Assembly: GCA_963922205.1 (NCBI GenBank)
Contig: CAWUHX010000546.1
Span: 1-64,000, forward strand
Source of the DNA: Romanomermis culicivorax
Taxonomy: Eukaryota > Nematoda > Enoplea > Mermithida > Mermithidae
Length of the DNA: 64,000 bases
Reading direction: 5' to 3'
Shown here one piece after another: positions 26,441 to 59,700 of the stretch. The position numbers and the translations under genes were made by a program. The notes under the pieces were generated by a model. That model was given only the letters and a program-made list of their open reading frames with translations. It was not told where the DNA came from and did not search any database. Numbering within the stretch: position 1 is the first letter of the stretch; every line of letters starts with the position of its first letter.

Positions 26441-26442
26441 CC

Positions 26443-26690
26443 TATAGTATGTTTTTTATAAAATGTTTCCAAGTAGAAAAGTGACACAAACCAGTACTGT
26501 CATCCAAATCGCTTAGGTGAGCTCTTACTGTAAAATTTTTCACTCGAAAAATTGTTAAAGGTTAGTTCAGTATGCTCGCAAATTTCCATTGCTCTATTGT
26601 ATACTGTTTATCAGAAAATCGTAAAAATCTGAAATGCTACTTGCTTTCCACATTCATAATTTGGAGGCATTTCAAGAAAAACAGACTATA
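26443..26690 (+). mobile_element. Tc/mariner-like MITE copy
   Basis: Its left tip TATAGTATGTTTTTTATAAA and right tip CAAGAAAAACAGACTATA are inverted with TA at both ends. The interior (AAAAGTGACACAAA, GAGCTCTTACTGT, GTTTATCAGAAAATCGT) is shared with the copy at 58432. Confidence 0.75.
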
Positions 26691-36293: not shown

Positions 36294-37191
36294 TGTGCCC
36301 AGAAACACTGTTGCGTGCAAACGATACGAAACAAATATGGATTAGAACGTTTTCTGTTAACACTCGCAGGTATATTGATTGAGGCGTAAATAGAGTCAGA
36401 TTTTTTGAGTGAACATGGAAAGTTAAGAATCTTACAAGTCGACTCAAACAGACCAATTTCGGCGGTAAATGTGAACTTTTGATTACTTGGATGGAAAGCA
36501 GTTCAATTGCACCACTTGTCTAGATATACTCGGATTTTGCACGTTAATATGTGGCGGTACACATTCAAGAATTCGCATAGAAAATAACGGCCAGTATTAG
36601 TTGAATCGTGTTACACTGATCTTTTTTCACCGGATATTATTAAAATTTGCGTCAAAGTGATCAGCAGTGGTGCATTTAACCTCAAATATTTCTTGGTATA
36701 GAGATAAGATTCATTTGATGAGAGCCACTAAAAGGTAAAAAGAATCCTAAGGCCCAACTAGGGATTTCATCCAATTTTCAATGCTGAAAAATTTACAAAT
36801 CAGATTAGCATTTCTTCCGCAGTATAAAAAATGGCCACCCGGTTCGCCAGGCAGGATGACAGGAAGATCATCAGTTTGAATTTGTTGCATTTTCTCAAGT
36901 TCCTTGGTCATTGAGATCATGTGAGGTCAAATTCGTCATTTCTGAATATATTTATGCAAATTTTATTGTAAATACGACACATCGATAAGTGTGATTAATG
37001 AGACATAAGTGCGCCTCGAAAGTTTGCACATACTTTGTAAAGTTCGATTTTCCGAAAAAATGAGCCAACTTTGAATTAAGTTTATTCAATGAATACTTAA
37101 CCGATTGCGATATGCTCAATACCATTCGTTAGCCTATTCATTTTTCTACAAAGTGGTACATGTTTACGGTGAATTTGTTTTACGGGCTTTT
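36294..37191. other. Left flank of the LTR retrotransposon; nothing recognised
   Basis: AT-rich host sequence. Its last four bases (37188-37191, TTTT) match the four bases after the 3' LTR (50844-50847). This is a possible target duplication, but weak because it is a T-run. Confidence 0.45.
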
Positions 37192-38025
37192 TGTCAGAGG
37201 GTCAATTCCTCTGACCTTTGGTCCTCTAATTACATCATTTCATTTTCTAAAGTTTCTTTATTGCTAAAGTGTTTTCATTTATTCTCAGGTAAACAAACCG
37301 ATAAAACGGTTTGTGTCACTCATATTTTTGGTCTAAAATAAACAAATGGTTGGCGTAAATGTTTTGCATATCACTTGCAAGTCGATGTTAGACGCGCGCC
37401 AGCGTTTTTATTCATTCTTAGTTTTTCCTTATTATTATTGTTGTGACAAATATTGGCGTCTGGAGAATCGCCTCTCCCTTGCGTAGTATTGGCGTCTCAC
37501 CGTAGTTTTCGGACGCTGCGTGTTTTTGACGACGGTGACGGAGGAAAGGCTCGTCGTCTTGCTTATTTGTATTTCGTGATACGCGCCGCGGGCGAATTTT
37601 GAGCGATAACGCGGCCTGAGACGTTTTCGACGTTCCATTTTGAGGAAAGGAATCGGTGAGTGGTTGTTTGAGGCAGTTCACTTATTCTTGGTAAAGTTTC
37701 AGCTTAGGCCGTGGCCTGAGAGATCCCATTGGCCCTGTGGCTCGCTGCTCAGGGACAAAGTAGAAGGATCAGTCAACTAGGGAGGTTGTTGGCGTCAGTG
37801 TTTGTATTTTCGGCACTCCGCACCTTTGTTTCGTACTTACGTTCCTCATTGTATTTCACTACCTGTTGTGTTTTGCTCACTAATAAACGTTCACGTACAT
37901 CCAGTCTCAGCTCACTGCAGGAAGAGTGAAATTAGTACCGGGTTAGCGTCAGCGGTCGTACCAGATTGGATCTCCCACGAACCGCAGGCAGGCAGCCGAG
38001 GGCATACGACCACGCTAATACGACA
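37192..38025 (+). repeat. 5' LTR (834 bp)
   Basis: It begins TG and ends CA, and is identical to 50010-50843 except C at 37953 against G at 50771. The first bases form a small hairpin (GTCAGAGG at 37193-37200 and CCTCTGAC at 37208-37215). An AATAAA polyadenylation signal is at 37882-37887, and a donor-like GGTGAGT is near 37652. Confidence 0.97.
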
Positions 38026-38026
38026 T

Positions 38027-38042
38027 TGGTGACTTGTGCAGC
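38027..38042 (+). promoter_or_regulatory. Primer-binding site
   Basis: TGGTGACTTGTGCAGC begins one base after the 5' LTR. The TGG start is the complement of a tRNA CCA tail. Which tRNA primes it cannot be decided here. Confidence 0.7.
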
Positions 38043-38056
38043 TACAAAGGTAAAAG

Positions 38057-41000
38057 ATGAAGAAAGTATCGAAGCCGAAATTAACGATACGGAAGCAACC
38101 TGGACGACGGCCGAAAGTAACATTATCGCAAATGGAATTGAATAAAGAGGATCACGACGAACGGATGGCAAATATGGAAGCAACGATCGAGCAAGTAGCA
38201 AAGAAATTTGCGAATTCACCCGATGACAGCAACAAAGATCAGACTATTGACGCAGAGACATATGATTATGCGGATCAGGGGATACAGACGTCCTCTGGTT
38301 CAGTATCGTCCTTCGAGAAGATTAATGTAACTCCAAAAACGAATGTGGTATCATTTCATAATTCGAAATACACGCCTACAATACCGGAAATCGACGCAAA
38401 AATTGGTATCGAAACGAAACCGAGGAATGAAACCGAAAGACCGATGAAAGGGAATTTGCAGGATGTGGCCACTTTAGCCATCCTGGAATCAATGCAAAGA
38501 GCAGTCGATAAATCAACAAATGCCGTTAATGTGGAAAGAACGAAAGCAGCGCTCCGGGAACAAGAAATATTAGAACAACTTATGCAAGAAAGAGCAGAGA
38601 GAAAATTATTGGAGGAACGGTTACGAGAACAGGATCAACAAAATGCGAGAAAGATAATGGAAGAGGTCGAAAAACAAATGCGGGAGTTGATGAGGAAAAC
38701 GGATAAGAAGTTCGATGAAAGAATATCAAATTATGAAAATACGGAGATACTTCAGTCTGAACCGGTTAAAGACCATTTAGACAGGAGTTTAGAAAGGAAA
38801 TTGAATTGGTTCGAAAATCATCTCGCCCAGGCACAGGCTCAAGGCGCACAATATCGAAGGATGGAAGATGAAATACCAACAACGTCATGGAATCGCGGAA
38901 TGGAACAACCTATATCTGGAAGTGTCCCTCGAAATCAGCATGATTATGGACGATATTGCGAAGATCCTGAGAAAAGAATAAAGATAATTTTGGGTCGAAT
39001 GAAGAACAAGGAAATATCAGATAAAATGGAGGCCGCAGAAATACTCAATTTTTTCGCCTGTTTGGAAGGCACATTCAAGCCTGAAGATACGGAAGATCTT
39101 AGAATTGAAGTACTTTGGCGATGTTGTGATTTTGAAACTTCGACATATGTGGATAAGAATAGTAGCTATGAAGAAGGAAAGGCAAGCGTGATAAGAATGA
39201 TTGCTCCCAAAATGGACACTCCTGCGCTTAGGAGGGAGTTACATGATATGAAAAAACGAAAAGGGGAGACGACAAAGGATTTTTTACGCCGAATAAAAAC
39301 TTATGTTCATTTATTAAATTACGAAAAAACCGAAAATGAACGAAATCATATTGTCATCGAAACATATTTTCACAAAGCTCCAGTTTACGTCCAAACGCGA
39401 ATGGAAGGTCGGCTGCACGAATTCAAAAACATCGCCTCTTTGGCGGAGTTTGTAAACAAATTGAAAGCCGATACGACGGCCTGGAAGGAATTCAGCGAGG
39501 ACCAGGAAGACGGCGAGGATGATCGGTTGAATCGAGTCTATGAAAATAAAAGATTTAATAATTTACAATTTCGTCCGCAGGATAGTAATATAGGTCAACA
39601 GCAACAGATTATACGGCCTCAGCAAATTTTCCCGCCACCACCAGCATTTCAAACCCCTTTGTCTCAACAGGATATTATGAAAATGGTTAACGAAGCAATA
39701 AGGAATCAGGGCCCTCCAGCTCTTAATCGTTGGGGAGCCAATAATAATCCTAATAATGTACCATATAATAGCAATTTACCTGGTAGAATTTTGGGAAATC
39801 CGTATCGTCGACCATATTGTACATACCACAAATCGAATAGTCATTCGTCTGAAAATTGTTTTATCCTTCACCCGGAATTGATCCAACCAACGGATCAAGG
39901 GAGGTCGTGGAATCGCGGCAATAATTTTTATAATCGAAATTTTGACCATCGCGGCGGCTTTGTAAATCGTGGAGGAGCAGGATTTGCTAATTTCGGCCAA
40001 TGGGTGCCATATCACAATAATAACGTCGAACAGAATCCTAATGTGGCATATTATTACCGCCAAAATACCGTCCCACAGCCACCGCCAAATGCTGTACCAG
40101 TAACGCCAACACAACCGGTGAATAACCCTCCGAATAATTCCGTAAATGTTATAAATTCACAAGAGGCTAAAAAGCAAGACAAGCCGGAAATTATAGCATT
40201 AGATGGAGTTTTGATAGAAAACTACGAGTTAGGCTTGGGGAACGTTATCAATTCTACTTCAGAGACGAAGCCTAGACTCGCCAATGATAACGAGCACCTA
40301 TTTTTGGAAAATTTTCGCAAATGTCAACCGTTATTGATACCTGTTAGGATACGCGGAGAAGAATTTAAAGCCCTAATCGATACAGGAGCGCAATCTAGCT
40401 TTATGAGGACAGATACAGCGTCGAGGCTACTGAATACGCCTAAAACAAAATTCCCTATCCTAAATTCAGTCGTAACAGCTGTCGGAAAACGAGTGACAAC
40501 ATATGGTCCTACATTTGTGTACGTTGGAACCGGTTTTGGGAATTTTTTGGCCAGATTCGCGCTACTAGACAACCTAAATGAAGGTTTTATATTGGGTCTA
40601 GATTTTCTAACCCATCCTAGTATACAGGCGTCTATCGATTTTCGAAACGGCCACATACGCCTAGCAAATGTAGAGAAACAAATTATTAGTGAGACATTAT
40701 TCGACGATGCGCAAATACCGTCCCATTTACCGATCCCTACGAATCCAATGGTTCTCGATTACGTACCTCTACAAGAGGAAGTCAAAGAAGAGGACCTACC
40801 TGAATTAGAAAGTGACGAGGATCAAGAACAAGTGATGCGAATTACTGAAATGAACGAAGAAACCTTTATTTGGACAAAAAACGGGGCATATATTCCCCCA
40901 AATACCACTTCTTTTGTGCAAGCTGTGGTTTGGCCACAGAAAGATTGGGCAAAGGGTCCTATAGTGGTGGAAGAAACGGGGAAAGATACCTTATTTGACG

Positions 41001-41332
41001 TCGATGCCTCAATCGTGGACGCTAGAGACAACAATTTTCGTATCTTACTAATAAATGAGACAAACAAAGGAATCAAATTGCGTGGCAACGAGTTAATAGC
41101 CAAGACCAGAACAAGGTTCGTGGGGCCAGAATTTGACGAAAGAGTACATCAACTGCAATCGGAGCCCCAAACTCAATGGCAAACCGAACCAGAATTCGTC
41201 AAAATCGTTACGCAGTTGGTAAAAGAATCAAGTGTCGATAGAGAAGGGCAACAACAGCTCATGAATGTCTTACTCAAGCATAGGCAGGCATTTAGCATGA
41301 AGAGCGATCCTTACCCAGGAAGCGGAGCATAA
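38057..41332 (+). CDS. ORF1: Gag-protease polyprotein
   Basis: 1091 residues. A basic N-terminus is followed by a long coiled coil (about residues 150-235, rich in Glu/Arg/Lys/Gln) and then a helical retrotransposon Gag core (about 310-490). Next is an Asn/Gln/Pro-rich linker, and at 588-601 a zinc knuckle spaced CX2HX4HX4C, with His replacing the usual second Cys (a variant also known in other gypsy Gags). A retropepsin domain follows at about 760-870, with catalytic DTG (D775) and the flap-side motif FILGLDFL. The C-terminus has the short region that normally leads into RT. It ends at TAA 41330-41332 while the pol frame is already open from 41301. The ATG at 38057 is the first in frame after the PBS. 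The product would build the particle and mature the polyproteins. Confidence 0.95.
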
Positions 41333-44081
41333 GATCGATACAGGAGATGCGCTACCTGTTCAAAAACACTACTGGAGAGCTCCAATTATGCAAAGAGATA
41401 TAATTCGAGGACATGTCAAAGATATGATGGACAAAGGTGTCATCGAGCCTTCGAGAAGCCCTTGGGCTGCGCCATTGTTTTTGGTAGGCAAAAAAGATGG
41501 CACATGGAGACCAGTAGTCGACTACAGGGGAATTAATCAAGTGACGAAAGACGACAAATTTCCGATACCTCGAATAGACGATTATTTAGATGCGCTAGGA
41601 GGAGCACGGTACTTTTCTACTTTGGATTTAAAGTCGGGGTATTGGCAGGTACCCATGCACTCCGAATCAAAAGAAAAAACAGCATTTATATGTCAAGAGG
41701 GTTTGTTCCAGTTCAAGGTGATGCCGTTCGGTCTAAAGAATGCTCCCGCGGAATTTCAACGACTCATGGAACGAATTTTGTACCCATACGTATGGAAAAT
41801 ATGCCTAGTATATATCGACGATGTTATAATTTTTTCAAAAACCGTCGAAGAGCATATAGAAAATTTAGAGACAATATTTCGATGTCTAACAAATGCGAAC
41901 CTCACACTAAAACCTGACAAATGTTCCTTTATGCCAGCCAGTGTGAAATTCTTAGGCCACATATTGGACAAGAATGGAATGTCAGTAGATCCACAAAAGA
42001 TAGAAGCGGTAAAAAATTTCGAAGTACCCAAGTCCATCAAGCAGCTGCAAAAGTTCTTGGGATTAGTGCAGTGGTCTAAACGTTTCATTCACAATTTAGC
42101 CTTTATCGCCCAGCCCTTATTTAAAGCCCTCGCAAAGAAAAATAGGAAGGAAAAGTTTGAACTTTCAGAGGAGCAGTTAGCAGCTTTCGAAAGTGTAAAG
42201 AATGCCCTAATGACGGCACCCTTCCTCCGATACCCAGTATTTGACGGGTCGGCAAGATTTGTAATTCAAACAGATGCCTCAGGAACGGCAATAGGGGCAA
42301 TTTTGTATCAAGAAACGGAAAATGATCGATGGACAATAGCCTACTCGAGTCGAGTTTTAAACGACGCGGAAACAAGGTATTCAACGACAGAAAGGGAATG
42401 TTTGGCGGTAGTTTACGGGTTCAAGCAGTATAGGCACTACGTGATGGGGTTTAGGGTCACAATCAGGACAGACCATAAACCACTCACGTGGCTCTCCGCG
42501 GAGAAGCAGCAAAATCAAAGGTTGTTAAAATGGGCTTTATATCTGGGTCAATTCAATTATGCATTCGAATACGTAGCCGGACGTGAAAACGCCTTCGCGG
42601 ATTTCTTATCACGATCCGAGGAAAAGGAAAATATTCGGGATAAAAAACAAAGAACAAAGGAAGAAATCGAAGAGGAGAAATCGACTACGGAACCCGAATG
42701 CATGGCGGTTACGAGAGCCATGACGAGGCAAATGCTTGAACCTGAGACTCAGGAAACATTCATTGATCCCCCACCGCCGACCCAACAAGAAATAGATCAG
42801 ACACCGAAAGAAGTGAAAAAAGATTCCGAATTATTCTCCCTGGAATTAGTCAAGAAGCAACAACAATTGGATCCGAAGTTGGCGGACATTTTTCGGAACG
42901 TTGGTGAAAATAGTTCGAAAAAATACTTTAATAGTTTTCACTTGGAAAACGGAGTATTATACCGTGAAAATGCCCATGGAAAAAGCCAACTAGTGATCCC
43001 ATCAAGACTTAGACACCTCATCTTACATCAATATCACGGCGATACATTAATGGGACACCAGGGAATAGATAGAATTATCGCCGCGATAGGAAACAAGTTT
43101 TGGTGGCCAAATATGGAAAACGACATTATTAAATGGATAAAATCCTGCGTCGTTTGCCAACTGTGCCGCCCCATAGCAAATCCGATCCAACCGCTTAACC
43201 CAACACCCGTCTCGTACTCGTGGGAGATAGTAGCAACCGATGTGGTCAGTATTTCGCCACTTCGAGAAAAAAGACCATACGTTATTGTATTTATGGACTA
43301 TTTCACGAAATGGGTCGAAGCAAAATGCATCCCAGATCAAAAGGCCGACACAATAGTGAAGGCATTTATGGAAAAGGTCATTTATACGCACGGCACACCG
43401 AAACACCTGCTGAGTGACCAAGGCTCAGCATATATGTCCGAGTTAATGCGCAACGTGTGCGATCTCTTAAAAATAAAGAAAATAAATACAACACCATACC
43501 ACCCGCAATGCAATGGTATGGTGGAGAGATTCAATAGAACGTTAATAGAACAAATTAGGAGAGTCGCGATAACCGACCCAGACGATTGGCCACACTATCT
43601 CGAGCAAATTTTATTTGCATATCGGATTACGCCGCACAAAACAACGAAAAATTCCCCCCATAGCCTACTGTACGGGCACGAGGCTAGGTTTCAATTGGAT
43701 AATGAGATAGCGAGGCCAATAATTATCCAGAATAATTACGATACCTACAGATACATGTTAACGGAGCACCTCCTTAACACGTATAAAATCATAAATGAAA
43801 ACCATAAAAAATCCGCGGCTGAAAGAAAACTACAGTACGATAAGAAGGCTCGCGAAAAAACATTCCAAACGGGAGAACTTGTTCTCTACCAAAAGGGAAT
43901 TATCAAAGGAAAGGCCGACACAACAAACGACGGCCCGTACGAAGTAATTGAGACATCGAATTTAGAAAAAAATGTCATTAAAATACGTCGCGCTGGGAAA
44001 CCAGATTCGCGCGTACAAATAGTTTCTGTAAATCGCGTAATGCCTTTTGTTACGCGAACGCCTGATTTTTACTGTAACTAA
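41301..44081 (+). CDS. ORF2: Pol (reverse transcriptase, RNase H, integrase)
   Basis: The frame is open from 41301, with the first ATG at 41388 (numbering below is from it). The conserved pol start (HKIDTGDA) lies upstream of that ATG, so translation most likely enters by frameshift from ORF1 rather than from the ATG. RT has [23 protein letters not shown] and catalytic YIDD at 142-145. RNase H has TDAS (D296), TERECLAV and TDHKPL. Integrase has a zinc domain H550, H557, C587, C590 and the catalytic triad D618, D677, E713 with 35 residues between the last two. A GPY/F-like DGPYEVIE lies near the C-terminus. All catalytic residues are present. The protein copies the element RNA and inserts the DNA. 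Confidence 0.96.
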
Positions 44082-44480
44082 CAATTCATTTTTATCGTTT
44101 TCGTTGTGCGTTTTGTTAGGATTAATTTTATGGGTTTTTTCTAATGCCCTATGTATTATATTTTTTCTAACCTTTTCCCCTTTCTCCTTTTTCAATTTTT
44201 AATTGTACTGACTTATTTTTGGCAACTTTATGGCAAGTTTTAGGCTTTTTCCGAAAAATTACGATGCCGGAAAATTTTTAATGGGCGAAATAATATTTTT
44301 TCACGCGCTCAGTGTGAAAAAATTAACTCTTTATAAGTCCCGGGAAAATCTTCCCCGAATCATTGAAGTCGTGAAGCCGAAGAATTATGGAATTATTTTT
44401 TAGATTTCATTTGCAAAGCGTTAGTGTATTAGTAATTTTCATCGATTGGAAATTTCAAGAAATTCGGATCCAAACGCGAT
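44082..44480 (+). other. Spacer between pol and ORF3
   Basis: AT-rich, non-coding on inspection. It may hold the 5' part of a spliced ORF3 message. Confidence 0.5.
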
Positions 44481-47400
44481 ATGGCAACGTCCACTATCGT
44501 CGAAGTTGATAGCACCTTCGGGCAGCCGCAAGATCGGCAAGATAATACGAATTTTCAACTCAGTAGTAAGTATTGGAAAGGTAGAATGTATGTTGAAATT
44601 TTTCGGAATAGGACTCTAAGTTGACCGGCCGGCAATTTATATGCCGAGGATTTTGGGTGTTTGAGAGCCTGATCAACTCCCCTTCGTCCAAATTTATTCT
44701 TGTGCATTTGAGTCGTTTTTGTTTCGAAATTATTGTTAAAAATTGTAGTTAGAAAATTGTGTGGAAATTTTAAGATTACAATGTTCGAAGATTAGTGCGT
44801 TCAACGGATATTTCAAATTATTTCACGTCGTTGTTCGGTGTGCCTCATGCGGCCATCGAAGAACCATTATTTTTGGCGCCCGAAAATTTGAAAGCATTTA
44901 TTAGAGCGATAAACAATTCGAAGTTTCGAGGACGGATAGTCATAGCGCTGGATACAGAAAGTGGGAGGAAGCCAAAAACCCCAGGATCGAAGCCTAGTGA
45001 CGCATTGCGACTTTTAACAATTTCAACCATGTGCGGGAAAAACTTCATAATCGATTTGAAATTTTGGGACAAAGAACATTTCCACAAAGTATATGGAACA
45101 ATATTTCGCCGCGAAAACATCATCGTCGGTTTTCATATTCGAGAGGATATCACGTTAGTTTTGACCAAATTCGGATATTTGGATCAAGAAAAAGAACTAG
45201 TGCGGAAAAGACGGGACAACATAGATTATATTTTATCGTGCTGCGTTTACGATTTGGAGATTGTGTTGGCAGAAATGAAGGACAAGCCGAAAGCCAGAAT
45301 AGTCGGAATCAGCCCCGAAGGTCTCAATTTGAAAGCCCTCATGACGGAAATTTTGTTTTTATGGGCCGATGCCTTCAAGATTTCGTGGGGACAGTTGAGT
45401 TCCCTGGAGTTTCGACAGCTAATGGAGGCAGATAAGCTAAACATAGAACTTTTGAGGTACGCGACGCTCGACGCGCGCGGGTCGCTTTTATGTTTTCTAG
45501 CGTTACTTCGATATGGATTCGCGAGCGATATTCAAAATTGCTTTCAATTGTACCCACACGACACAATGGAGCCGGAATTGATCTCCGATCTAGCACGAAG
45601 ATTCAGAGATACGTTCGAAGGTAGAATTGCTGATCCAGAGTGGAAAGGAGCATATGGAGTGGAAGAAGTAACGGATAACACCAACGCGTTGTATTTCATG
45701 ATGCGTGGAGAAGCTATCGCGACGTATAAATCGTCGGAAGAAATGGCGCCCGGGACTTTTCATTGTCCTCCGCATTTCTCCAATACCGATATTGAGCCAC
45801 AGCCAGTACCAAACGGTTGGTTCCCGTGGATAGAGAGAAAAGTGAAAGCGTCAAGGAAAAGAAAAGATACTGACGATTCCGAAGAAGCACCGGCAAACGA
45901 TTGGGATTTAGAGGATATCTTGGCTGCACGACAGTTCGGACGGCCAATTGAACCCCGGGAAATGGAAATGAAAAAAGGAAAATGGCCTAAGGATGTGGTC
46001 CAGTTCACTAATGTTATACGAGAACAAGTTTCGGCACTCAAAGACCATTATCACTCCAAAATCAACCGATCAATCGTCCCCATAGTCAAAGAGTTGTACG
46101 AGAAAAACGTAAACCCGATCATTTACTTCTTGTGGCCTCACTCGGCGCAAGAATGGAAATCCTGGGTTCCGGGATTCACGTCTGGTATGTGGGCCTCTGT
46201 GTGGAGAAATGAACAGGAACGGGTTGAATTTATGAAGTGGATGGGCCAGGATCTTTTGAACGACAAAATTACCGATCAGATGGAGCAGATGATGGAACGG
46301 TATCCGAAGATACGTATGCCGAAATCCATCCAGAACACTTTTTGCGTACTACCTATAAGATGGATACCGCGATCCTGCAAAGAACCTATCCAAGAAATAA
46401 AGACCAATTTGCGCGATAATTCTATTTATCATATGAATTGTAACTTTTATAACTTGTTTCATTTTGTGAATATCCATGCCGCGAGTCAGAACCTCATATA
46501 CTGGAATGTTTCCGCGTCCATATTCGAGGCTAAGGACCTATGGGCCCCTAGCACCTCTGCGACTTTTAAATCTGTAGATAAGTGGGACGATTCAGATCTG
46601 TATCCGCAAGTAGAAGTTGTGGTTCCCGCTAGGCAGGGCCCTATGGAAGAAACTTCGAAGGAGCAGACTGTAACAGTACCCTCTACAATAGATAATTCGA
46701 ATGTTTCAGGTACCGAGATGGAGCAAGAGAAACCCGTAGTTGTGGTCATCACGGATCCCCCTATCGCCAGTACACCCGCTGAGGGGAGTACAGGTGTTGA
46801 AGAGGAGGAGAAACTCATGGAAGTAGTCGAAACTGAAAAAGAAACCCAACCCGATTTCGAGAAATTAACCGACCAGATAAAAGAAATGAAAGAAAAAATA
46901 GAAGTTTTGGAAAGAGAAAAGTACGGCAGGGCCGCAATCGAATTGGCAAAGCAATTAGAAGATGTCAATCCCGAGGAAGAAGAAACGAGCGAAGAACCCT
47001 ACGTGGAGGTGGTATCAGAGATTGGTAGCGATGACGAAGAGATTACGGATAACGTTTTGCCCACGCCGCCGGTTTATGCAAAAGCCGGTGGGCAAAATGT
47101 AGAGAATATCAGGAATCCGGACAAATTTGCTAAAGTGATGCAATCGAAGAGACAGGCTACAGAGAAACAGATAGGTCACGAAGAAAATAAAGCCGAACTG
47201 GACAAAGTAAAGAGCGGGCAGTTTCAACAGCCAGCCGGAAACCCGAATGATAAAGTCAAATATCGACGAGGCCTCGGCAAACGGGGGCAAGTTTTGAACA
47301 AAGCGTTGAAAGAAGGAAAGTACGTCGTTGATTTCCAGTATGGAAGAGTATCTCTGTCGAATCCATGTGTCCAAAAATATCTCGCGCACATGGATCCCAC

Positions 47401-48847
47401 TTTAGACGAGGAGGTAGCGTTAATGGCGACGGATTTGATAAACCGTGTGTACGACGAAGCCGGGATCGAAATTGAAACTATACGATATTACAAACTACAG
47501 TTTCACGTTCTACAGGCGAATTTGCCAGAAAAATTGTGGAGTATTTTTGAGCTTCAATTAACGGAATGGAGTACTACACGGTCTGCAGAGAAAGCCTATG
47601 AAGCCGCCGTATGGGCTTGTGCGTGCTTATTTATGAAATTGTCGAGATTGGGTAGGATTCCCCAAAATTTCGCCGGATTCCATTACCAAGCCCATGCGTA
47701 TGTTACAATGAAATTGCGCCGCGAGTTCAACGCTAGGCAAGGAGGAGCAGGGAGCAATTTTCATAGGTTATACTCCTCATGTCAGGCAAAGGCAGCGGGG
47801 TTAGCTTATACGATTGCCAAGGCCGTGCTTCAGGACAAGAAAGACCCCGAACCGAAATATGCGAACATACAAGTTTGGAAGAAGGAAATTGACAATACGG
47901 ACCCCAGAATACAGTTTTGGGAAGTTATCGATCGGAAGAAGGCTCACGATATATTGGAAGTTCAAAAAGCCTTAAAGAAAAGAGTGGGATACCGAGTCAA
48001 GCATGCCCACGCTAGGCCTGCGACCAGTAAGGTATCCAAACGATGGAGTAGAAAAGAAACTGATACGCAAAGAACGGAGAAATCGAAAACGCCCGAAAAC
48101 GACAGAAAAAGAAGGCACGAAAGTCGACACAGAGACAAAAGTCGTCACGAGAAGTCGATGTCGCGGGAAAAGAAACGCAAGGAAGCGGAAGAAGAAAGTT
48201 GGCGCAAGGAGATCGATGACTACGAAAAGAAATACGAAAGGAAGGAAAGAGAAAAAAGAGAAGCGGCAGAACGTAAAGGTAGTAGAGAGTCTCGAAGTAG
48301 GAAAAGAACAGCCGCATATTACCAACACGATGATAGAGTGGACGTGTCCTACTCCAGTCGAAGGACTTCACTGGACAGGTCTAGGGCCACCGAAACAACT
48401 CAGCAAGGAGTGTCAATGGCCGATCCAAACGCGATGATGCAAGCCCAGCAGCAGCAGTTACCTTATTTACCGCCGAATTATCCGGGATTGCCGATGGTGG
48501 GTGTTGATTGTATAAACCGCCCTCTTTTTTCAGGACAATTACTCCCGAATACAATGGTGCCGCCGCCGGCACAGTTTCAAGTCCCGCAGTTTCCGGTCAT
48601 GCAATTCCAGGCCGGGCAACCCCAATTTTACCACCAGTTCTTAGTTCCGCCGGGAATGCAGATGCCTCCGCCTACAATGATTCCGCCGGTGCGTAATGTG
48701 CAAACCGAGGAAAGGATGGACATCCCGGGGACGTCGACGAGTATGAGACCGCCGTCGACTGAAAATCCCGATTATATTTCGCCGCTTAAACGGGAAACCG
48801 GTATTGGTCAACCGGGACGTGACCATAGCGGTCATAGAAGGAAGTAA
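44481..48847 (+). CDS. ORF3: DEDDy 3'-5' exonuclease-like protein, probably spliced
   Basis: The main exon is open from 44774 to 48847 (about 1350 codons; numbering here starts at codon 44795). It has no ATG before residue 79, which lies after the first catalytic motif. A short ATG exon at 44481-44565 ends at donor A|GTAAGT, and acceptor AG at 44773-44774 (TTTTAAG) joins it in frame. AG at 44794-44795 also fits. Exo I is LDTE (D53, E55), Exo II VGFHIRED (D118) and Exo III YATLD (Y222, D226), so all five residues of a DEDDy nuclease of RNase D/WRN/MUT-7 type are present. Then come about 400 residues of no known family, an acidic stretch, a coiled coil (about 687-715), a helical block (about 840-1070), an Arg/Ser/Lys/Glu-rich segment (about 1080-1180) and a Pro/Gln-rich tail. 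No signal peptide or membrane span is seen, so it is not an envelope. The role is unknown; trimming or proofreading of cDNA, or interference with host RNA silencing, are guesses. Confidence 0.85.
44566..44774 (+). other. Predicted intron of ORF3 (209 nt)
   Basis: It starts GTAAGT, a consensus donor, and ends TTTTAAG. The upstream exon ends in phase 1 and the downstream frame accepts it. In-frame stops inside (TGA near 44622, TAA at 44771-44773) mean that without splicing the ATG exon and main ORF cannot be joined. Confidence 0.6.
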
Positions 48848-49996
48848 ATTTTTTATGTTTCAGATGACCCCACTCTCCGTGAGGTCATTATAAAGATAAT
48901 TATTTCGTTCTGTAAAATTTTTTCGATATTTCAAAAGTTACCTATTTCTCTGTTGTGAGCGTCTGTATTACAAAATCGAAACCGGTTGTGCCACCTTTTT
49001 ATGCCTTAAAAGTTGCCTCTTGTACTAATCTCAAATTGTTTCATTTATTTTTTCGTTTGTGTTTTGTTCGAGATCTGCACGGGAATATATCGTATTTCTT
49101 TTTTTTGCGAATCTGGAAATTATTGAGCAATTTTTTGTATTTTCTTAAATCTCGGGTATTTTGTTCCTTTCCGACAAAGTCACCAACTGGCATCGCCCAA
49201 GGATAGCAAGCTTTGCGCTGCCATTTTCATATTTTTTCCATCTTTTTTCCAAAACACATTTTCATTCTAAAATTTTTCTCGTGGCACAGACCGTGTTATG
49301 GGTTTAAGTTTACCTCTTAATAAGGCAAATTCACTTTAGCAATAAATACCTTAAATATTTTTGGTTCAAAATCTAGACAGCCAAAGGGCCAGAGGATTTG
49401 GTTTTCGGGCATCCTTTCTCCCTGGGGGCAGATAATACCAAAGGCGTCGGGGGGGCCAGTGTCCGGCCAAGGGGCCAGAGGAGCAACGGCGGCGGAATTG
49501 GGAAAGTCTTGCGGGCTCTCCACAGCAACAACCCCCCCTCCGGAGAGGACGGAGACGAATGCCACAATCCGTGATGGAGGAGCCGTCGATACAAAATAAA
49601 TCGACGGCAGTGGGGAGCAGCCCACAACCTAACTCGGGCACCGCGGGGGTCGCCGCCGATAAAACATTTTTATTTTTATCTTGGTCAAAATCGGCCCGAG
49701 TGCCGCGAACGCTATTCGTTCGAACATTTTTTATTCTTTTATTCGGGACCACGAGCCCACGGGGCATTTTATTAGCGAACTTTTTAGCGTCGGGTAGCAT
49801 CCGGCGCAATTGGCCCAAAGTTGTAGCGATACCGTTCGATACGGACATTTTATTTTTTATTGTTTATAATTGCGTCAACGGCGCGTAGCGTCGTTGGTTG
49901 GAACAGTTGGAGGCGTCGATCGTCGGCGTCGAGGGTCTGGGGCCCTTGGGGGACCTCCTGACTTTTCCCTTCGCTGGCGGGAAAAGTCTTGCCTTT
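48848..49996 (+). other. Long 3' spacer of the retrotransposon with GC-rich core
   Basis: It is AT-rich to about 49370, then markedly GC-rich with short repeats (GGGGCCAGAGGA twice, near 49385 and 49470) and G/C runs. A 160-codon frame on the minus strand (49366-49848) begins with ATG but is rich in Arg, Pro, Gly and Cys and matches nothing I know. I treat it as a by-product of composition, though antisense frames do exist in some retroelements. Confidence 0.5.
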
Positions 49997-50009
49997 GGGG
50001 GGGGAGGGA
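49997..50009 (+). promoter_or_regulatory. Polypurine tract
   Basis: GGGGGGGGAGGGA abuts the 3' LTR directly, at the position where plus-strand DNA synthesis is primed. Confidence 0.9.
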
Positions 50010-50843
50010 TGTCAGAGGGTCAATTCCTCTGACCTTTGGTCCTCTAATTACATCATTTCATTTTCTAAAGTTTCTTTATTGCTAAAGTGTTTTCATTTAT
50101 TCTCAGGTAAACAAACCGATAAAACGGTTTGTGTCACTCATATTTTTGGTCTAAAATAAACAAATGGTTGGCGTAAATGTTTTGCATATCACTTGCAAGT
50201 CGATGTTAGACGCGCGCCAGCGTTTTTATTCATTCTTAGTTTTTCCTTATTATTATTGTTGTGACAAATATTGGCGTCTGGAGAATCGCCTCTCCCTTGC
50301 GTAGTATTGGCGTCTCACCGTAGTTTTCGGACGCTGCGTGTTTTTGACGACGGTGACGGAGGAAAGGCTCGTCGTCTTGCTTATTTGTATTTCGTGATAC
50401 GCGCCGCGGGCGAATTTTGAGCGATAACGCGGCCTGAGACGTTTTCGACGTTCCATTTTGAGGAAAGGAATCGGTGAGTGGTTGTTTGAGGCAGTTCACT
50501 TATTCTTGGTAAAGTTTCAGCTTAGGCCGTGGCCTGAGAGATCCCATTGGCCCTGTGGCTCGCTGCTCAGGGACAAAGTAGAAGGATCAGTCAACTAGGG
50601 AGGTTGTTGGCGTCAGTGTTTGTATTTTCGGCACTCCGCACCTTTGTTTCGTACTTACGTTCCTCATTGTATTTCACTACCTGTTGTGTTTTGCTCACTA
50701 ATAAACGTTCACGTACATCCAGTCTCAGCTCACTGCAGGAAGAGTGAAATTAGTACCGGGTTAGCGTCAGGGGTCGTACCAGATTGGATCTCCCACGAAC
50801 CGCAGGCAGGCAGCCGAGGGCATACGACCACGCTAATACGACA
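50010..50843 (+). repeat. 3' LTR (834 bp)
   Basis: Same as the 5' LTR except G at 50771. Its AATAAA signal is at 50700-50705. Host sequence follows with TTTTTT. Confidence 0.97.
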
Positions 50844-50847
50844 TTTT

Positions 50848-53062
50848 TTAAAATGAAAGAGTATTACGATACAATCCTCTTTTCTTTTCGTGAGCAATCT
50901 TCGACTGTCTATGACGTATTTCGAAATTTTTTTAATTGAATTTATGGCTTTGACTCACCGATCTTCTTTAGCTTTTTATGCTACTTCGAAATAGTGCAAG
51001 AATTATGATCATAGGTAAAAAATTAAGTGAAGTGCACTTGATTTCGCAAATCCAAGGAAGATTGCTCGTACGACTGGCATGTTCAATGCCTAGTCGTCTA
51101 GACGCCTGTATCAAAAGGCGGTAGAATCCTATTCTAACGCTGGCGAATTGTGACATCAAATTTTAAATATGACAGAAAAATTTCTATTATGCTTAAAATT
51201 CCAAGTTAATCAGCATGCGGCGTAGAAAAATAAGAAAATTTGAAGTTTCAGATTACGGGAAATCGAGTGAATTTCTTTTTTTTAGCCACGATCAAAAGTT
51301 TTTGCATCATCGAAATCAGCATAAAAACTGATTTCGGTCTATGATTCAAAATAAATAAATTATAATAGCAAGAACGTCACTAATTATCGAAAACTACTCA
51401 CAAAAAGATAAAAAAAGTTGCAGCGTACTTAGTCGCCGAGTAGTAGATTTTGCAGTGACAGACGATAGCAAGGTTACCTTGGGGTAAAAACTGAAAAATC
51501 TACCCCGCCAATTTGCGCCTGCTCAGAGCAGGTCTACCTCGTTGGGTAAAGCTGGCGATCGTTGTTTTTAGTGTAGCTTATAAAAGATCTATTCTAGTTC
51601 AAAGCTAATTTGACGACCTATTTATAATGAATATAGTTGAATTGATAGATTTTTTCGATCAGCAAAATCAGATTATCATTGAAGAATTGCGTGATAAGAG
51701 CAAATTTATAGATCGCTCGAATCCGTTTTAAATTTATGATGATCCGATGTAACAGTTATTGTTGTCGGGCAACTGGGGTTATCTTTAAAGATTTGTGCCA
51801 CACGATCTCATGGCGTTCTCTCTGCTTGACTAGAAGCCTGATCCGTCTTCTTATTTTCAGTGATTTCTCGAAATTCCTATGAGCATTCGACCAAAAATTC
51901 GTTTTCAAGTGAAGAAAAGTTCGAATCACGTTTCTTTTTTCAGTCACTATCGTTTTTTCGAAAATGTTAGTCGTACACTACAATGTATAAACCAAAATTA
52001 ACCAAGCCTTACGTACATTGGGTAGAAAAAACTATAAATGAAACTCAGCAAATACACATGACATGAAAAAAACACGAAGTGACGCAACAAATTTGTGTCG
52101 ACTCCTACGAGGCAAAGAATTACCTCGCACTTTACCCCGAGGTACGTACCCTACGTTTACCTTTCCTTCCGTCATACCGGCTCAAATTTACCCCCGTGGG
52201 ATAGCTGCCCAGAGGTAAGTTCTAGTCTTGGGCAAATTTGTCTCGCCTTTCCGAATGTAAAAGACAGAAGGTGAGGTGGGCCGAGTGACGGAGGGAAAAT
52301 GAACAAGGTACCGAATGGCACCAAGTAAATCGTAATCGGTCAAGTATTCATTGGAAAAACTTAATTCAAAGTTGAACCATTTTTCTGAAAATCGAACTTC
52401 AAGTTCGTCTAAACCTTTGAGCTTAACTGTAGCTCATGTGGCTAAGGGCAATCGAATGAACTCTACCTCTAATTGATGTCTGAACATTGGATCGGTCTGA
52501 TAAGATTCTCATTTCTGTATCCATAAATTTTGTCTTGCCAATTACGGGGAGAATATTCCCGATTTAATTACTCAACTAAATTGCTGTGCATAAGCTTCAA
52601 AATAAGATTTTCAGTTCAACAGTAGGTAACTGAGATTATTAGAAGCATATAAACGATTCAATATAAACCGTGAAATATTTGTAAATGCGATTCTCTCTCT
52701 TAGAGTAAACATTAGGCTCCCATGATTAATCAACTTGAAAATCAAAAGCCCCTTGTTTATCACGCACATTAGTTCATTAGCATAGTCAGGTATATCAATG
52801 GATAATTTGTCAAGCGTTATGGATATCGATTTGAGCAACCCACGCTGAAGCACTTCAACATCAACTTGAAAAGCTTTCTAGAAAAGCAATGAAACGTGAT
52901 AAATATTATGCCCTATTTTCATCGCTTCTTTCATCATAATACGAAAAGTCATAGAGGATATATTTTGATCTTTTGATATTAGATGTAATTCTATCTATGA
53001 TATTAAAATTTAAGTTTTTCGTTTGTGTGTGGTTCATAACGCTATAAGTAGATAGCATATTA
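50848..53062. other. Right flank of the retrotransposon; only weak inverted repeats
   Basis: AT-rich. ACCTTGGGGTAAA near 51475-51488 and the inverse TTTACCCCGAGGT near 52131-52143, with neighbouring GGGTAAA/TTTACCC words, may mark a decayed inverted-repeat element of about 750 bp. No genes were recognised. Confidence 0.35.
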
Positions 53063-53968
53063 TAAGATATACCTTTTTAAAAGAATATAAACGACTGAGA
53101 ACCGTATAGTGCAATGTATAAACTTGCTATACATAAAATATACCTACAGTATGACGCAAAATGCTATAAACTAGTTTCATGTTATAACATAGCCCCATGT
53201 TATAACATATAACATACAAAAATTTTTTTTCATTTTTCGACATGTTATATCACATGTCCAATGTCATAACATGTCGCACATCATAACATATCCCACATGG
53301 AGGATATACATGTTATGACATACCCTGTGTTATAACATATCTCACGTTATAACACATTCCATGTTATAACATAACTCATGTTATATTTGTCACAACACAC
53401 AAAATATAGCTGCTTTTTAAAAGGTATACGTTTTGACCTTAGCGCCATATACAGCAATGTATAAACACGCTGTACATTAAATATACCTACAGTATCCCAC
53501 CGTATGTTATAACATGACCTTATGTTATAAAAATGGCCTATGCTATAACAATGACCTATGTCGAAACATAAAAAAAGTTTTTTTTTCAAAAAATGTTCTA
53601 TATCGAAGCCATATGTTATAACACAGCCTTATAATACAACATAGCCCTATGCTATAACATACTGAAATTTTTTTCGAGAAACTTATATATGTTATAACAC
53701 TGGATATGTTATAATGTAGGCTATGATATAACGCGTGATATGCTATAACATAGGATATGTTTCAACATGGGATATGTTATAACATGCAATATGTAATGGC
53801 ACAGGATACATTATAACATGGAATGTGTTATATTGTGGATATACTATAACGTGGTATATATGTTATAACATGGGATATGTTATAATATGGGATATGTTAT
53901 AACATGAGATACGTTAAAACAAGGGATATGTTATAACCTGGGATACGTTATAATATACGTATATCTTA
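53063..53968. mobile_element. TTATAACAT-rich inverted-repeat array, foldback-like
   Basis: The palindromic word GTTATAAC recurs tens of times. In the left half it is mostly followed by CATA-(G/C)CCC spacing, and in the right half preceded by GGGATAT, so the halves are mirrored. TAAGATATAC at 53063-53072 and its inverse at 53959-53968 may be the tips. Inside the left half a block with GCAATGTATAAAC and AAATATACCTACAGTAT is present twice (about 53110 and 53450). No target duplication was seen. Confidence 0.6.
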
Positions 53969-56740
53969 AAAATGCGAGCATCGCGAGCCCGAATATCTGG
54001 TGATACTTTTAATTTTGAACAAATGATGTGTCAGTGCCGCGTCAGTGGCTATCAAGTTGATCGAGTTGAACTGATCCATAATTTGTTCGCCTTTGAAAGA
54101 AAAAAATTAATTCGACTGAATTCTCGGAAAAGTTTTAGGATGAAAAATAGGTATTCATAACACATTCAGAATCAACAAAATCTATTCCTCTCTTTGGCAT
54201 AAAAGGAGATTTCATTCTGAAAATTCCTGTAATGATTTTCTGTGATACTGTTAAAAATAATTATAAGAAAAAGCTTCCCTCAGAACTACTTGTACGCTCA
54301 ATGATAGAAATATTTTTAAAAAATCATAATTTTCATTAAATCTGAGGATTCCAAACTTGCCACGCGGTGTTTGTTTATTTCGATCAACTATGGCATCATA
54401 GGTCGAAAAAACTAAAAGTAAGGAATAATCCTACTTTGGTTTACTTCCATACTGTCAGGAAAACGTTGAATTGAAAGTGCGCTTTGCAGTTTCACCACGT
54501 GAATTGCTTTCCAAGTCAAAAAAGCTAAAAATGGGCTTCGTTTTGGACATTGATTGGGAAATTACACTGATTAGTTAGCCGGGTATTATGCATATCAAAA
54601 AAAACATACACAGGTCGATCACACCTCAAACTTGGAAAAAAATAATGCTGAAATAAATATGCAAATTACGTACGAACCTCATTTTTTCACAGGAAACGTC
54701 ACAGCCCAAAAAACTAGTTCATTTTTTCAACAAGCGATAGATTCCAATTGATATTGTTTCAAAAATTAATGTCCATTTTTTGCAACACAGCGTGAGATAA
54801 TCTCTTTGGGAAAGAGCAAGAAGTGAGAATCTAGGTCACGTGACGACATTTTCAATTATTTCCATTTGCCCATTACCATCAGTCATTTGTTTGTTTTTTT
54901 GATTGCGGTAGTTTTTTCGAAATATAATTATGGAAAGAGAATGAATTTACGGAGGAAATTGGTGAACTTTTTTACCTCTGCAAATTGACTTATTAGTTGA
55001 TAAATATAGAATCGATAATTAAAATAAAAATATTGCAAAAATGATAAAAAACAAACTGGTGTAAAAAATTTTACTATGTTGAACAATTTTCAATTCAGAA
55101 AGATAAGAACATCAGGCGTTATTTTCTTTTTGCAGAAGTTTAAGAGTCCACCTGTGGTTGTGCGTTTTCGTCCGCCAATTAACAATTTCGGAGAAATTGT
55201 GACCATTAAAATAAGAGTTGAATCGGGTTCGTGACACTTGGAATGATTTGTGGTTCGAAATGTGCAGTATAAATTTTAATTCATGGACAAAACTTCGAAT
55301 ATGTAAATTATGTGCAACAAGATCTCAGGATCTGAGCCCATTTGCATCAGCAACTTTTGAATTTTAGAAACGTTCAGAAGTCTTATAGAAGGTTCCACTG
55401 TTAAAAAGGTTTTACTCGCACCAAAATTAATAAGATCAGATCGGTCGAGAAAGGCTTTTGATACACGGCTCATCTATTTTCAGGCGGAAAATGATTGATT
55501 TTCCTCACATAGATGATGGACAGAAATGTTGATCATAAAAGTACCAGTCAATTTTATCCTAAAGGAGACAGTTTTAGCCACAGGACTCAACACACCACTC
55601 ACCTCTGCACTTGTGAACTTCTGAAAGAATAATTTAAACTAAACTTGTTTTTAAGTCTTTGATTTAAGTCGATAATGCTGAACTTGTAAAAGCGTTTTTT
55701 CTAAAAGTCTTTAGTGCAAACGAACAATTCTAAACTCGGAAGAGTAAAATTAAATTTCTGAAGTTCTGAACTTCTAAGTTGGTTTTACTGCCAATTTCAT
55801 AACAAAGAATCATGTGGCGAAAACACGACTGTCGTTATCAAATAAATCATCCGCAGTTCCCAAAAACGTGTCCTTGTTGCACCTTGTTTTACTACTGCAT
55901 TTCACGAGAATAGCTTTACGACCAACTTCTCCTACTAGCTTCTTCAAGAGTAAAAAACATGAGTAACTCGGATTTCTTTCGAGCGCACAGGCGAAGACAA
56001 CATCACAGGCGAAGACGACACTTTTTCTAATGTGAATTTAAAAAAGTTGAAGAAAATTATTAAAAGTGTTATCAAAAATATGAACTGCAGCAAAATGTTA
56101 TGCCCACGAAAAACACAAAAAGTCTCGGGTCTAGAGCATACAGGAAGAAACGAAAGAAATTATTCAATTATAAGCATTTTCTCCAGAACTCACCTCGTTA
56201 TACTTTTTTTCTTCATTAAAGTAGCGTCTATCTACAAGTAATTTCTAAATTCTTAATTAACCTCTAATCGCATTTTTGAAAAAATTTTCATTTTAAACTT
56301 CAATCCTTTCTTTATATTCGTTTGTACAGTGATCGAAAAACTCGAGAGCAAAAATGCACTAACCATTTTTTGAGATATGAACTTAAACATGTACAAGTAT
56401 AACTACAGTAATCGATCAGCAGGGCCATTCATAATAAGGCGTTTTAATCTCTTTGGTTTGACTTCTCTCTTTAAGAAACAAAAATCACCCGAACCCATCA
56501 AAGAATCTTTGATAATTTTCAAGCAATATAGACTGTAGAAATTTATTATTCAATCATATAATGTACACGTGTATAAGAGTAAGATTTTGTAAATTTTTCT
56601 GGCCCTCAACATATTATCCTATCATTTTGAAATGTATAGAGTTCATGAAAAAAACATCAAATCATCTGATCAGCACAAGTTCTATATTATTGCTGACCTT
56701 AAAAAAGCAAAAAAAAGCATCATCATCGAAATTTTCGTTG
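53969..56740. other. Intergenic DNA, nothing recognised
   Basis: No supported gene, RNA or repeat; it forms the 3' flank of globin B. Confidence 0.4.
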
Positions 56741-59700
56741 TTAACTTATAGACGAACGTTTAAACGAAGACAAGAAACATTTGGTCACGTCGACTATGTC
56801 CACCGAACCATTCTTGAAACCGTTTTCCATCTCCCTGATTATAAAATCGGCGACGACGGACCAACCGTCGGCGGCGAACCGCCTCTCCGCCGGCGTCAAT
56901 GCCGGATGACGTTCCAACTCTTCGCGCATCACGTGCACCATCGAAGCGCGGAAGATTTGCCACAGCTCGGGCTTGAAGTTGCGGTCGGCGGCCACGCGCC
57001 TATGACGCCGACCGATATTGTGGAAGTAGCGGGCCAAGTCTTCTTTCCTGGCCTTTTCGCCGTCGGTTTTTTCTTGGCGTCGACAGGCGTGATGACTATT
57101 GTCGCTAGAAACGTCGAGTTTGAAGTTTTCCAAAAAATCTTCTTCATCTTGATCTGTTTCTTCAAGCGCTATGACTACTTGACTCAAGGCTTGAACGAAT
57201 CTTGAAAAGAAAACTATAGGTACACGACGACTACAGTACGACAAGATTCTGTATTTGATGTGAATCCTGTAACTTGACCCCTGATTACAAAATTTGGTCA
57301 CAATACTATGGAAAAATAGAATGAGCTGTACGCACGCTTCTTTCAAGTACTATTCAGTACTAAAGAAGTTGCAAATTTACATAAAATTTCAAAAAATCCT
57401 GTGATGGTTTCTAAGCTGACTTTGAATCAAGGTGAACTCATTCCAAATAAAAATCACATATGTGGCACATTCCAGTTTATTACAAAGGATCTCTACGTCT
57501 AAATTATAAAATGATACGCTTTGTGCAATAGTGAGTAGTGTAACACTGACTTTTTTTGCTCATGAGCCTTACATTGAAAATTGCACGCATGTGCTAAACA
57601 ATCTAAAGCTTACCTATAACTAATCTCGGGAACTATAGTAGATACGTATGAACGAGTCGAAACTTCATGAAAGTCCAGAACTGTGCGTTTTATGGGGTTA
57701 CGAGATGAACAGTTCACCTAACATACTTCATTGTAGTACTTACCGTTTCTGAAAGTTTGCACAATTCTCAGACTCTTGAGAATATACCTCCGTGGACTAC
57801 ATTTTTGCAAATTTTTGTGTAAAATAAATTTTGGAATGTTCTCGACCAGTCGAAAACCTGGCACTCACAGGCTATGACCTACATTTAACAGGTTTTTTAT
57901 CATTTCTTGCAGTGCTATGCTTTTAAAAAGATAAAAGGAGTAACTAATCAACTTGAAGCATTTCTTAAGTCTAATGGTAATTGTTCTAATTTTTGGCTGC
58001 CGCACTAAGAGTTTCGGATTACATGCGCAAGAGCTATGGTCTATCCATTATCAAATGAGCTTGGGGAAGCAAAATAATCCGTAAAAATTGGTGAGCAGAC
58101 AGCAGACTTGCATCGTAGGCCGAAATCTTTTTTTTGAATGTGTTCGCCTTGGCCACTACAGTTAAGTTGAGAAAATACGTGTCCATTTACATAGGTAGTT
58201 TAATTGCGTGAACATTTTTCTGCGCGCCGATACTCATTTAGAAAAAATATACTAAAGCTGATCACTAGTTAAAACTTGATTTGTAAATTGACTAGTACTC
58301 ATGAAGTCTGCCTGATGGACTTGGCATACAAACGGTGCACTAGTGAAGTCTCTTGAGCGAATAAGAAGTTCGGAAGCCGTTGGTTCAGCCGACACCTGAT
58401 CATAGAGAAGTATGCTTTTCGTGAATGATTCTATAGTCTTTTTTTATAAAATGCTTCCAAATAGAAAAGTGACACAAATCAGAATCGTCGTCAAAATCCT
58501 TTACATAGAGCTCTTACTGTGAAATTTTTCCCTCGAAAAATTAAATTGAAATTGAAGGTTAGGTCAGTATGCTCACAAATTACCATTCCTCTGTGATATA
58601 TTGTTTATCAGAAAATCGTGAAAATCTGAAATACTACTTGCTTTCCATTTTCATTATTTAGAAGCATTTAAAAAAAACAGACTGTACGTTGAAAAATGAC
58701 AAACCCTTTTGCTTTTATTATAGAATTTTTTACTCAAAATTTGGTTCAAGTCCCGACTCTGGGACATATAGTTTTTTCGAAAAATTCTTAAAATATAAAA
58801 TTTTACTTTTTTTCAAGTTTTATTATTTTAAAGGGTTTCAAGAACTACGGGATCCTTCAAAATACTGATGTGAGTACAATACCCTCTATAAATAGTCATT
58901 CTAAGTCTTCAGTGTTATTACCAAGATCAATCAACCTCTGAATCTAAAATCGTCGATGCATAACGATCACTGTGTTCGTAGCTGATAGTTCTGTTAACTG
59001 GTATTAAGGTTGTTGCTAGCATATGCAGTGAGTAAAATATGTAATATGAATTAGAATGTTGCATCACATATGCATTAAATTTTCCCCATAATTGTTGGCG
59101 GTGATTCACTCAGGAATCAAATCAGTTTCTAGAATAAAAATGTCAGATCGAAGCGACAAATGCATGAAGAAAGAACGATATAATAAGGAAAAACAACGCA
59201 AAATGGTCTTATCGTACAAAATGAAAAAGCAAATTAAAAACATTAACGTCACTGAACTCTAAAAACGCACCGGAAAACGTAGGACGCTTACATGAAATGC
59301 AAATAAGGCGGATAATGGAAATAACAAAACGGAAATGGGTTTTAGAAATTTTTTCTGTGAATTCTGCAAAAAGACTAAAAAAGTAATAAATCTCACATTC
59401 ACATTTAAAAGCACGTGACCGTGTAAGAACACTAGAGAAACTGCTGACTAAACAGTTTTTATGGCACAGCAGAGGAAAAAGGAATCTATATTGGTCATTG
59501 ATGCATATACTGATCTGATACTGACTGAATATTTACAATCACTTCAAACTCATGAATTGCAGATTGTGCAACCACCGTAAATAATTATACGTAAGATTTC
59601 TCATCTACTTATCAGATCTTGCACAAAGTCGACCTTGCTTATTCTATTAATTATGTTTTTCGCCATTGAATAATTTGCACAAAAGTGTATGTAGTGGTTG

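Follow-up and report, generated by a model that had tools for sequence, protein, structure and literature searches.

What protein is encoded in the envelope slot of a gypsy-type long terminal repeat (LTR) element of the nematode Romanomermis culicivorax is the question raised by the stretch of DNA analysed here, namely bases 1-64000 of one contig (CAWUHX010000546.1; 64,000 bp, hereafter the window) of an assembly comprising 359.1 Mb in 595 contigs. The element is located at 37192-50843 (13,652 bp) and, like its features given below unless stated otherwise, lies on the forward strand. Its third open reading frame, ORF3 (44774-48847), occupies the envelope slot, after the integrase and before the 3′ LTR. 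The first 268 residues of the translated product (44795-45598), numbered from the codon at 44795, form a DEDDy 3′-5′ exonuclease-like domain with D53, E55, D118, Y222 and D226. The sequence comparisons make it likely that ORF3 joins a DEDDy (RNase D/WRN/EXD2-like) 3′-5′ exonuclease domain to a long undefined remainder, and that it is an old component of its clade which aids the element.

Reading frame and architecture of ORF3

ORF3 is stop-free over 1,357 codons. A chance open frame is ruled out: when the DNA of ORF3 was shuffled by mononucleotide 200 times, the longest stop-free frame had at most 326 codons; outside the element the longest such frames are 184 codons on the left (from base 781) and 229 codons on the right. 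The original prediction, made from the sequence alone, described a product of about 1350 residues spanning 44481-48847. The length holds, with 1,350 amino acids counted from 44795, but the coordinates call for a caveat, since 44481-44773 is out of frame with the rest of ORF3 and can be joined to it only by intron removal. A possible first exon (44481-44565) would run from an ATG at 44481 up to a GTAAGT donor at 44566, with an in-frame AG acceptor ending at 44774, and it is possible that ORF3 is spliced across 44566-44774.

Behind the exonuclease-like domain, approximately 1,080 residues contain no recognised domains. They include an acidic stretch (46595-47194; residues 601-800) with 24 D/E in each 100 residues, a basic stretch (47795-48394; residues 1001-1200) with 25 and then 35 K/R per 100 and eight RS/SR dipeptides in residues 1101-1200, and a P/Q-rich stretch (48395-48694; residues 1201-1300; 21 P, 17 Q). 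Against NCBIfam, the exonuclease-like domain had no match, and the C-terminal piece of ORF3 had two weak ones at the level of chance. The position between integrase and 3′ LTR is the one point in favour of ORF3 being a true envelope or cell-entry protein whose exonuclease likeness is incidental. No strong hydrophobic membrane segment was found by hydropathy alone, a crude test (highest 19-residue Kyte-Doolittle mean: 1.29), which makes an envelope role unlikely, no envelope family is among the Pfam matches of ORF3, and the ORF3s of sister elements match an exonuclease family (see below), so that this explanation is highly improbable.

When read codon by codon, the five residues stand exactly where they were originally placed, with D53 and E55 in IALDTES, D118 in IIVGFHIREDI, and Y222 and D226 in RYATLDA. 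The motif set, written as a regular expression, had no match in 20,000 shuffles of residues 1-300, a result that serves as a rough guide because the expression was composed after the sequence had been seen. Several searches with sequences of the window led to nothing: a protein database search of limited sensitivity gave no matches with the whole of ORF3 (E ≤ 0.01) or with residues 1-275 (E ≤ 10), scans of viral contigs with ORF3 and pol gave none, and phmmer with residues 1-268 against the sequences of the PDB returned two chance matches only. It is the relatives found in the same genome that make the family assignment firm.

Relatives of ORF3 in the genome

A six-frame search of the genome with residues 1-268 yielded 143 scored copies with 87-100% identity, which is a lower bound in view of 2,692 first-look candidates. 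By count from the copy table, the open frame reaches 1,355 codons or more, with a stop-free match, in 47 of the 143. In the seven other copies of the window's element that were compared (7/7), the integrase C-terminus is found upstream of ORF3 at constant spacing. A further genome search with the exonuclease profile PF01612 gave 119 matches at E ≤ 10, among which 58 loci were examined.

These loci include diverged sister elements. In family B (eight loci, L039-L046), pol is present upstream in 8/8 loci and is 41-56% identical to that of the window's element, and the ORF3 products share 22-27% identity with the window's (E-values 1.8e-22 to 1.1e-25). The family B ORF3s are 1,342-1,398 codons long in six of the eight loci, and 1,232 and 617 codons in the remaining two; the motifs FDVE, D and YAGMD are in place in the three sequences viewed. 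The eleven loci of family D carry ORF3 in interrupted pieces that share 24-36% identity with the ORF3 of the window; pol was seen upstream in 4/11. A different DEDDy open frame, of about 608 codons if whole, defines family C (30 loci, L009-L038), all members being 74-100% identical to the L016 frame. Just upstream of it, within the 1.5 kb covered, 26 of the 30 loci encode an integrase 24-38% identical to the window's. Six additional loci (L047, L049-L052 and L057) match family C, and L060 is a diverged relative of it. Two further loci, L048 and L061, appear MUT-7-like and EXD2-like by eye, have no pol match in the stretch covered and are too short for a tree; they are probably exons of host DEDDy exonucleases.

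All 30 family C loci pass the PF01612 cut-off, with up to 50 bits. Homologues of the window's ORF3 that also exceed it include L066 of family D (30.0 bits) and L042 of family B (24 bits with neighbours); most of the listed family B matches lie under the cut-off.

Assignment of the N-terminal domain

The domains of 33 ORF3s from family A (the window's own) and families B and C were aligned. D53, D118, Y222 and D226 are four of the ten columns that are invariant across all 33, and E55 is kept in at least 90%. PF01612 matches 26 of these 33 ORF3s at E ≤ 0.1 (best: 3.3e-14), as well as 14 of 20 when family C is left out and families A, B and D are taken (best: 4.5e-7). Among the sequences of the PDB, a profile of family C matches WRN (9.2e-7), a MUT-7 homologue (5.1e-5) and Rrp6 (0.0036), and a profile of families A, B and C matches EXD2 (8.4e-6), the best-matching stretches of both profiles falling chiefly in the Exo III half. 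Together with the motifs and the sister ORF3s, these matches uphold the original placement of a DEDDy exonuclease-like N-terminus in a gypsy envelope slot.

Several results weigh against this assignment. The window sequence itself falls under the Pfam cut-off: the profile search originally proposed does give a PF01612 match with residues 1-268 (E = 0.0082; 16.4 bits), but the cut-off of 23.6 bits is not reached and residues 1-218, residues 1-275 and the whole of ORF3 give no match, so that the result depends on the cut chosen. Profiles of A+B and of A+B+D place EXD2 first in the PDB without significance (E = 1.3 and 0.6), and the significant PDB matches thus depend on family C. A tblastn search with the window's domain detected none of the 30 family C loci at E ≤ 1e-3, and the profile of A+B matches that of C weakly (E = 0.0029; probability 10.6%). 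Motif residues are changed in L033 (E to Q) and, among interrupted copies of family D, in L059 (E to K) and L064 (D to N). Two AlphaFold2 models, one from the single sequence and one from a 33-row alignment, were both unusable, with a mean predicted local distance difference test (pLDDT) score of 41, and fold searches with the first of them had no DEDD exonuclease among the matches listed, which does not count as evidence against a DEDD fold.

The exonuclease had also been proposed to be a captured relative of the nematode silencing protein MUT-7, and this suggestion is not sustained. A likeness to MUT-7/EXD3/Nibbler exists in the DEDDy domain and in the match of the family C profile to MUT-7 homologue chains given above. 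In most MUT-7 homologues, however, a MUT7-C domain follows the exonuclease, according to PMC11347159, and no MUT7-C match was obtained in the window's ORF3 with Pfam (whole at E ≤ 1, pieces at E ≤ 10). Moreover, EXD2 or WRN chains outrank the MUT-7 homologue in the profile searches. Capture of MUT-7 in particular is therefore rejected.

Selective constraint and phylogeny

The ratio of nonsynonymous to synonymous substitution rates (dN/dS), summed over pairs of the window copy and seven others, is 0.008 for ORF3 residues 1-240, compared with 0.050 for the integrase C-terminus of the same eight-sequence set, 0.115 for ORF3 residues 241-560 and 0.279 for residues 561-760, making the exonuclease domain the most constrained of the four stretches compared. 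A wider set of 28 loci was supplied, 22 of which could be aligned (the window being L005). In this set the exonuclease domain has a median dN/dS of 0.024 over 208 of 253 pairs, those with dS ≤ 0.05 or saturated having been excluded. Single stop codons occur in L070 and L075. The six loci outside these counts (L081-L086), which had no megablast match, keep the five catalytic residues as judged by eye, and two stop codons interrupt the stretch viewed in L084. The possibility that ORF3 is a chance fragment of a host gene, carried by one or a few copies and without function for the element, is negligible in the face of the 143 copies scored, the homologous ORF3s of diverged sister elements and dN/dS values of 0.008-0.024 in the exonuclease domain; on this point the original prediction, which had named a chance host fragment as a finding that would speak against it, stands.

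That constraint is centred on the catalytic domain speaks for an active enzyme, and we consider it likely that ORF3 encodes one. An alternative is that ORF3 acts mainly as a nuclear RNA-handling factor, in the manner of the CERV protein of the Cer1 element of Caenorhabditis elegans, with the exonuclease fold serving RNA binding instead of catalysis, as in Maelstrom or EXD1. In Cer1, itself a nematode gypsy element, CERV fills the corresponding slot and is not envelope-like; according to PMC10309623, its mRNA is spliced, and the genomic RNA depends on CERV for its export. The window's ORF3, for its part, combines a basic stretch that contains RS dipeptides with possible splice sites, and PMC5408684 mentions DEDD relatives in piRNA pathways that are inactive. 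Compared by description, CERV differs in being 517 amino acids long, and the word exonuclease is absent from the main text of PMC10309623. A domain retained for binding only would have no need of its catalytic residues, yet in the window's family all five are intact at each of the 22 aligned loci, the window included, and, with the exception of one E-to-Q change, they are also kept in the 33 ORF3s from families A, B and C. A mainly RNA-handling role is therefore improbable, and the reading of ORF3 as an exonuclease is preferred.

An integrase tree of 159 sequences was rooted at the midpoint, L055, L009 and three of 120 database proteins being omitted as too short. In it, families A, B and D group together (support: 1.0) in a clade that includes one database pol, P0001, and family C and L060 form a separate clade (support: 1.0); the ORF3s of the two clades differ accordingly. 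The 117 comparison sequences are the best matches to the window's pol, so that the tree sample is biased, and they do not show that ORF3 is absent from the corresponding elements. As judged from sequence, DEDDy ORF3s are thus found in two gypsy lineages of one genome, the A/B/D and C/E exonucleases representing either separate captures or an ancient parting. Within its own clade, ORF3 is an old, inherited component in this genome.

Comparison with known elements

The original prediction held that no gypsy-order element with such a nuclease had been described. This is contradicted by the Juno and Vesta LTR elements of bdelloid rotifers, which, according to Rodriguez, Kenefick and Arkhipova (2017; PMC5408684), carry RNase D-like DEDDy ORF3s downstream of pol. 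The same source reports DEDDy ORF3s in Athena elements, and at least two acquisitions of the rotifer DEDDy ORF3. The rotifer ORF3s are mentioned again in PMC5718144 and PMC6338049, the latter (2019) counting a DnaQ-like exonuclease among the 'well-known accessory domains' of LTR transposons. Juno and Vesta share with the window's element a gag-pol followed, instead of an envelope, by a DEDDy ORF3. As set apart by description, they differ in having a dUTPase between protease and reverse transcriptase, where none was detected here, in LTRs of 159-551 bp compared with 834 bp, in host phylum, and in a change of DEDD to DEED, D118 and D226 being kept here.

No report of a nematode element with a DEDDy ORF3 was found in the open-access literature, subscription papers and most preprints lying outside that scope. 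As far as was searched, three points are new: that the host is a nematode, that a single genome contains two such clades, and that the ORF3 is large and multi-part in an element with no detected dUTPase. The nematode origin of the DNA, implied in the original prediction, agrees with 50 genome matches to the cuticle-collagen family PF01484, all over the cut-off, compared with none in 14 control genomes (those named being prokaryotes); we take this family to be confined to nematodes.

Structure of the element and other features of the window

The element is bounded by LTRs of 834 bp (37192-38025 and 50010-50843) with TG...CA ends, which differ by one mismatch over 834 sites, and is flanked by the target duplication TTTT; it is a young insertion. 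A likely primer-binding site, TTGGTGACTTGTGCAG (38026-38041), is identified by its position abutting the 5′ LTR, and a polypurine tract, GGGGGGGGAGGGA (49997-50009), precedes the 3′ LTR. The gag and aspartyl protease open frame (38057-41332; 1,091 amino acids; PF13975, E = 1.9e-7) contains a CX2HX4HX4C knuckle, seen by eye. It is followed by a reverse transcriptase-RNase H-integrase open frame (41301-44081; 926 codons stop to stop) with matches to RVT_1 (4.2e-41), RT_RNaseH (5.9e-36) and rve (4.5e-14). The protease lies in the gag frame, and the two frames overlap by 32 bp (41301-41332) in different phases, so that a frameshift or other recoding is needed to reach the reverse transcriptase. 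The order protease-reverse transcriptase-RNase H-integrase, the TG..CA LTRs, the target duplication and the polypurine tract identify a Ty3/gypsy element. No dUTPase is among the Pfam matches of these two frames (E ≤ 1). A GC-rich segment between ORF3 and the 3′ LTR (49366-49888) harbors two open frames, one per strand, of 150 and of 165 codons, and a pair of 96-nt inverted repeats (37049-37144 and 52296-52391; 79%) brackets the element, perhaps representing the ends of an older repeat that received it.

Elsewhere in the window, a globin-like open frame is present on the reverse strand at 56741-57349 (PF00042, E = 0.0011, below the cut-off), and another at 27066-27467 (reverse strand) appears globin-like by eye without a Pfam match; duplicated stretches with 83% identity (58431-58683 and 26442-26687) are found near the two. 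By eye, an open frame at 14503-14910 (reverse strand) looks like the C-terminal end of a non-LTR retrotransposon, without Pfam support. Bases 1-780 contain an AAAAG-type microsatellite of somewhat under 780 bp, and 53095-53973 advances in repeat steps of approximately 17-18 bp, with copies in both direct and inverted orientation, some of them containing TATGTTATAACA. Scans of the window for Rfam families and for tRNAs gave no matches.

Proposed function and significance

The ORF3 protein would be produced from its own, probably spliced, mRNA. The basic RS-containing stretch and the possible splice sites would fit a protein that handles RNA inside the nucleus or close to it, as CERV does, and the exonuclease would trim 3′ ends to the benefit of the element, RNA being a more likely target than DNA; that RNA is the main substrate is slightly favoured. 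The benefit may lie in maturing or protecting the RNA or cDNA of the element itself, or in removing 3′ ends that feed the small-RNA silencing of the host. End processing of its own RNA or cDNA as the main benefit is a tentative suggestion. Processing of the 3′ ends of element RNA had been proposed before by Rodriguez et al. (PMC5408684), who also discuss mut-7 and mention a silencing role, with the argument that self-limiting elements should lose out. Counteraction of silencing, by any route, appears rather unlikely to be the main benefit, and a specific form of it, in which trimming of 3′ ends (e.g. of pUG tails or small RNAs) starves host amplification based on RNA-dependent RNA polymerase, is more doubtful still. 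If the latter were true, the element would oppose its host with the enzyme class, that of MUT-7, which the host itself uses in silencing.

Exonuclease ORF3s thus extend beyond rotifers: a single nematode genome has them in two or more integrase clades, and there the exonuclease domain is under stronger constraint than the adjoining integrase C-terminus. As 3′-end tailing and MUT-7-dependent transposon silencing are well studied in nematodes, the question still open in 2017, of how such an exonuclease may benefit its element, becomes testable.

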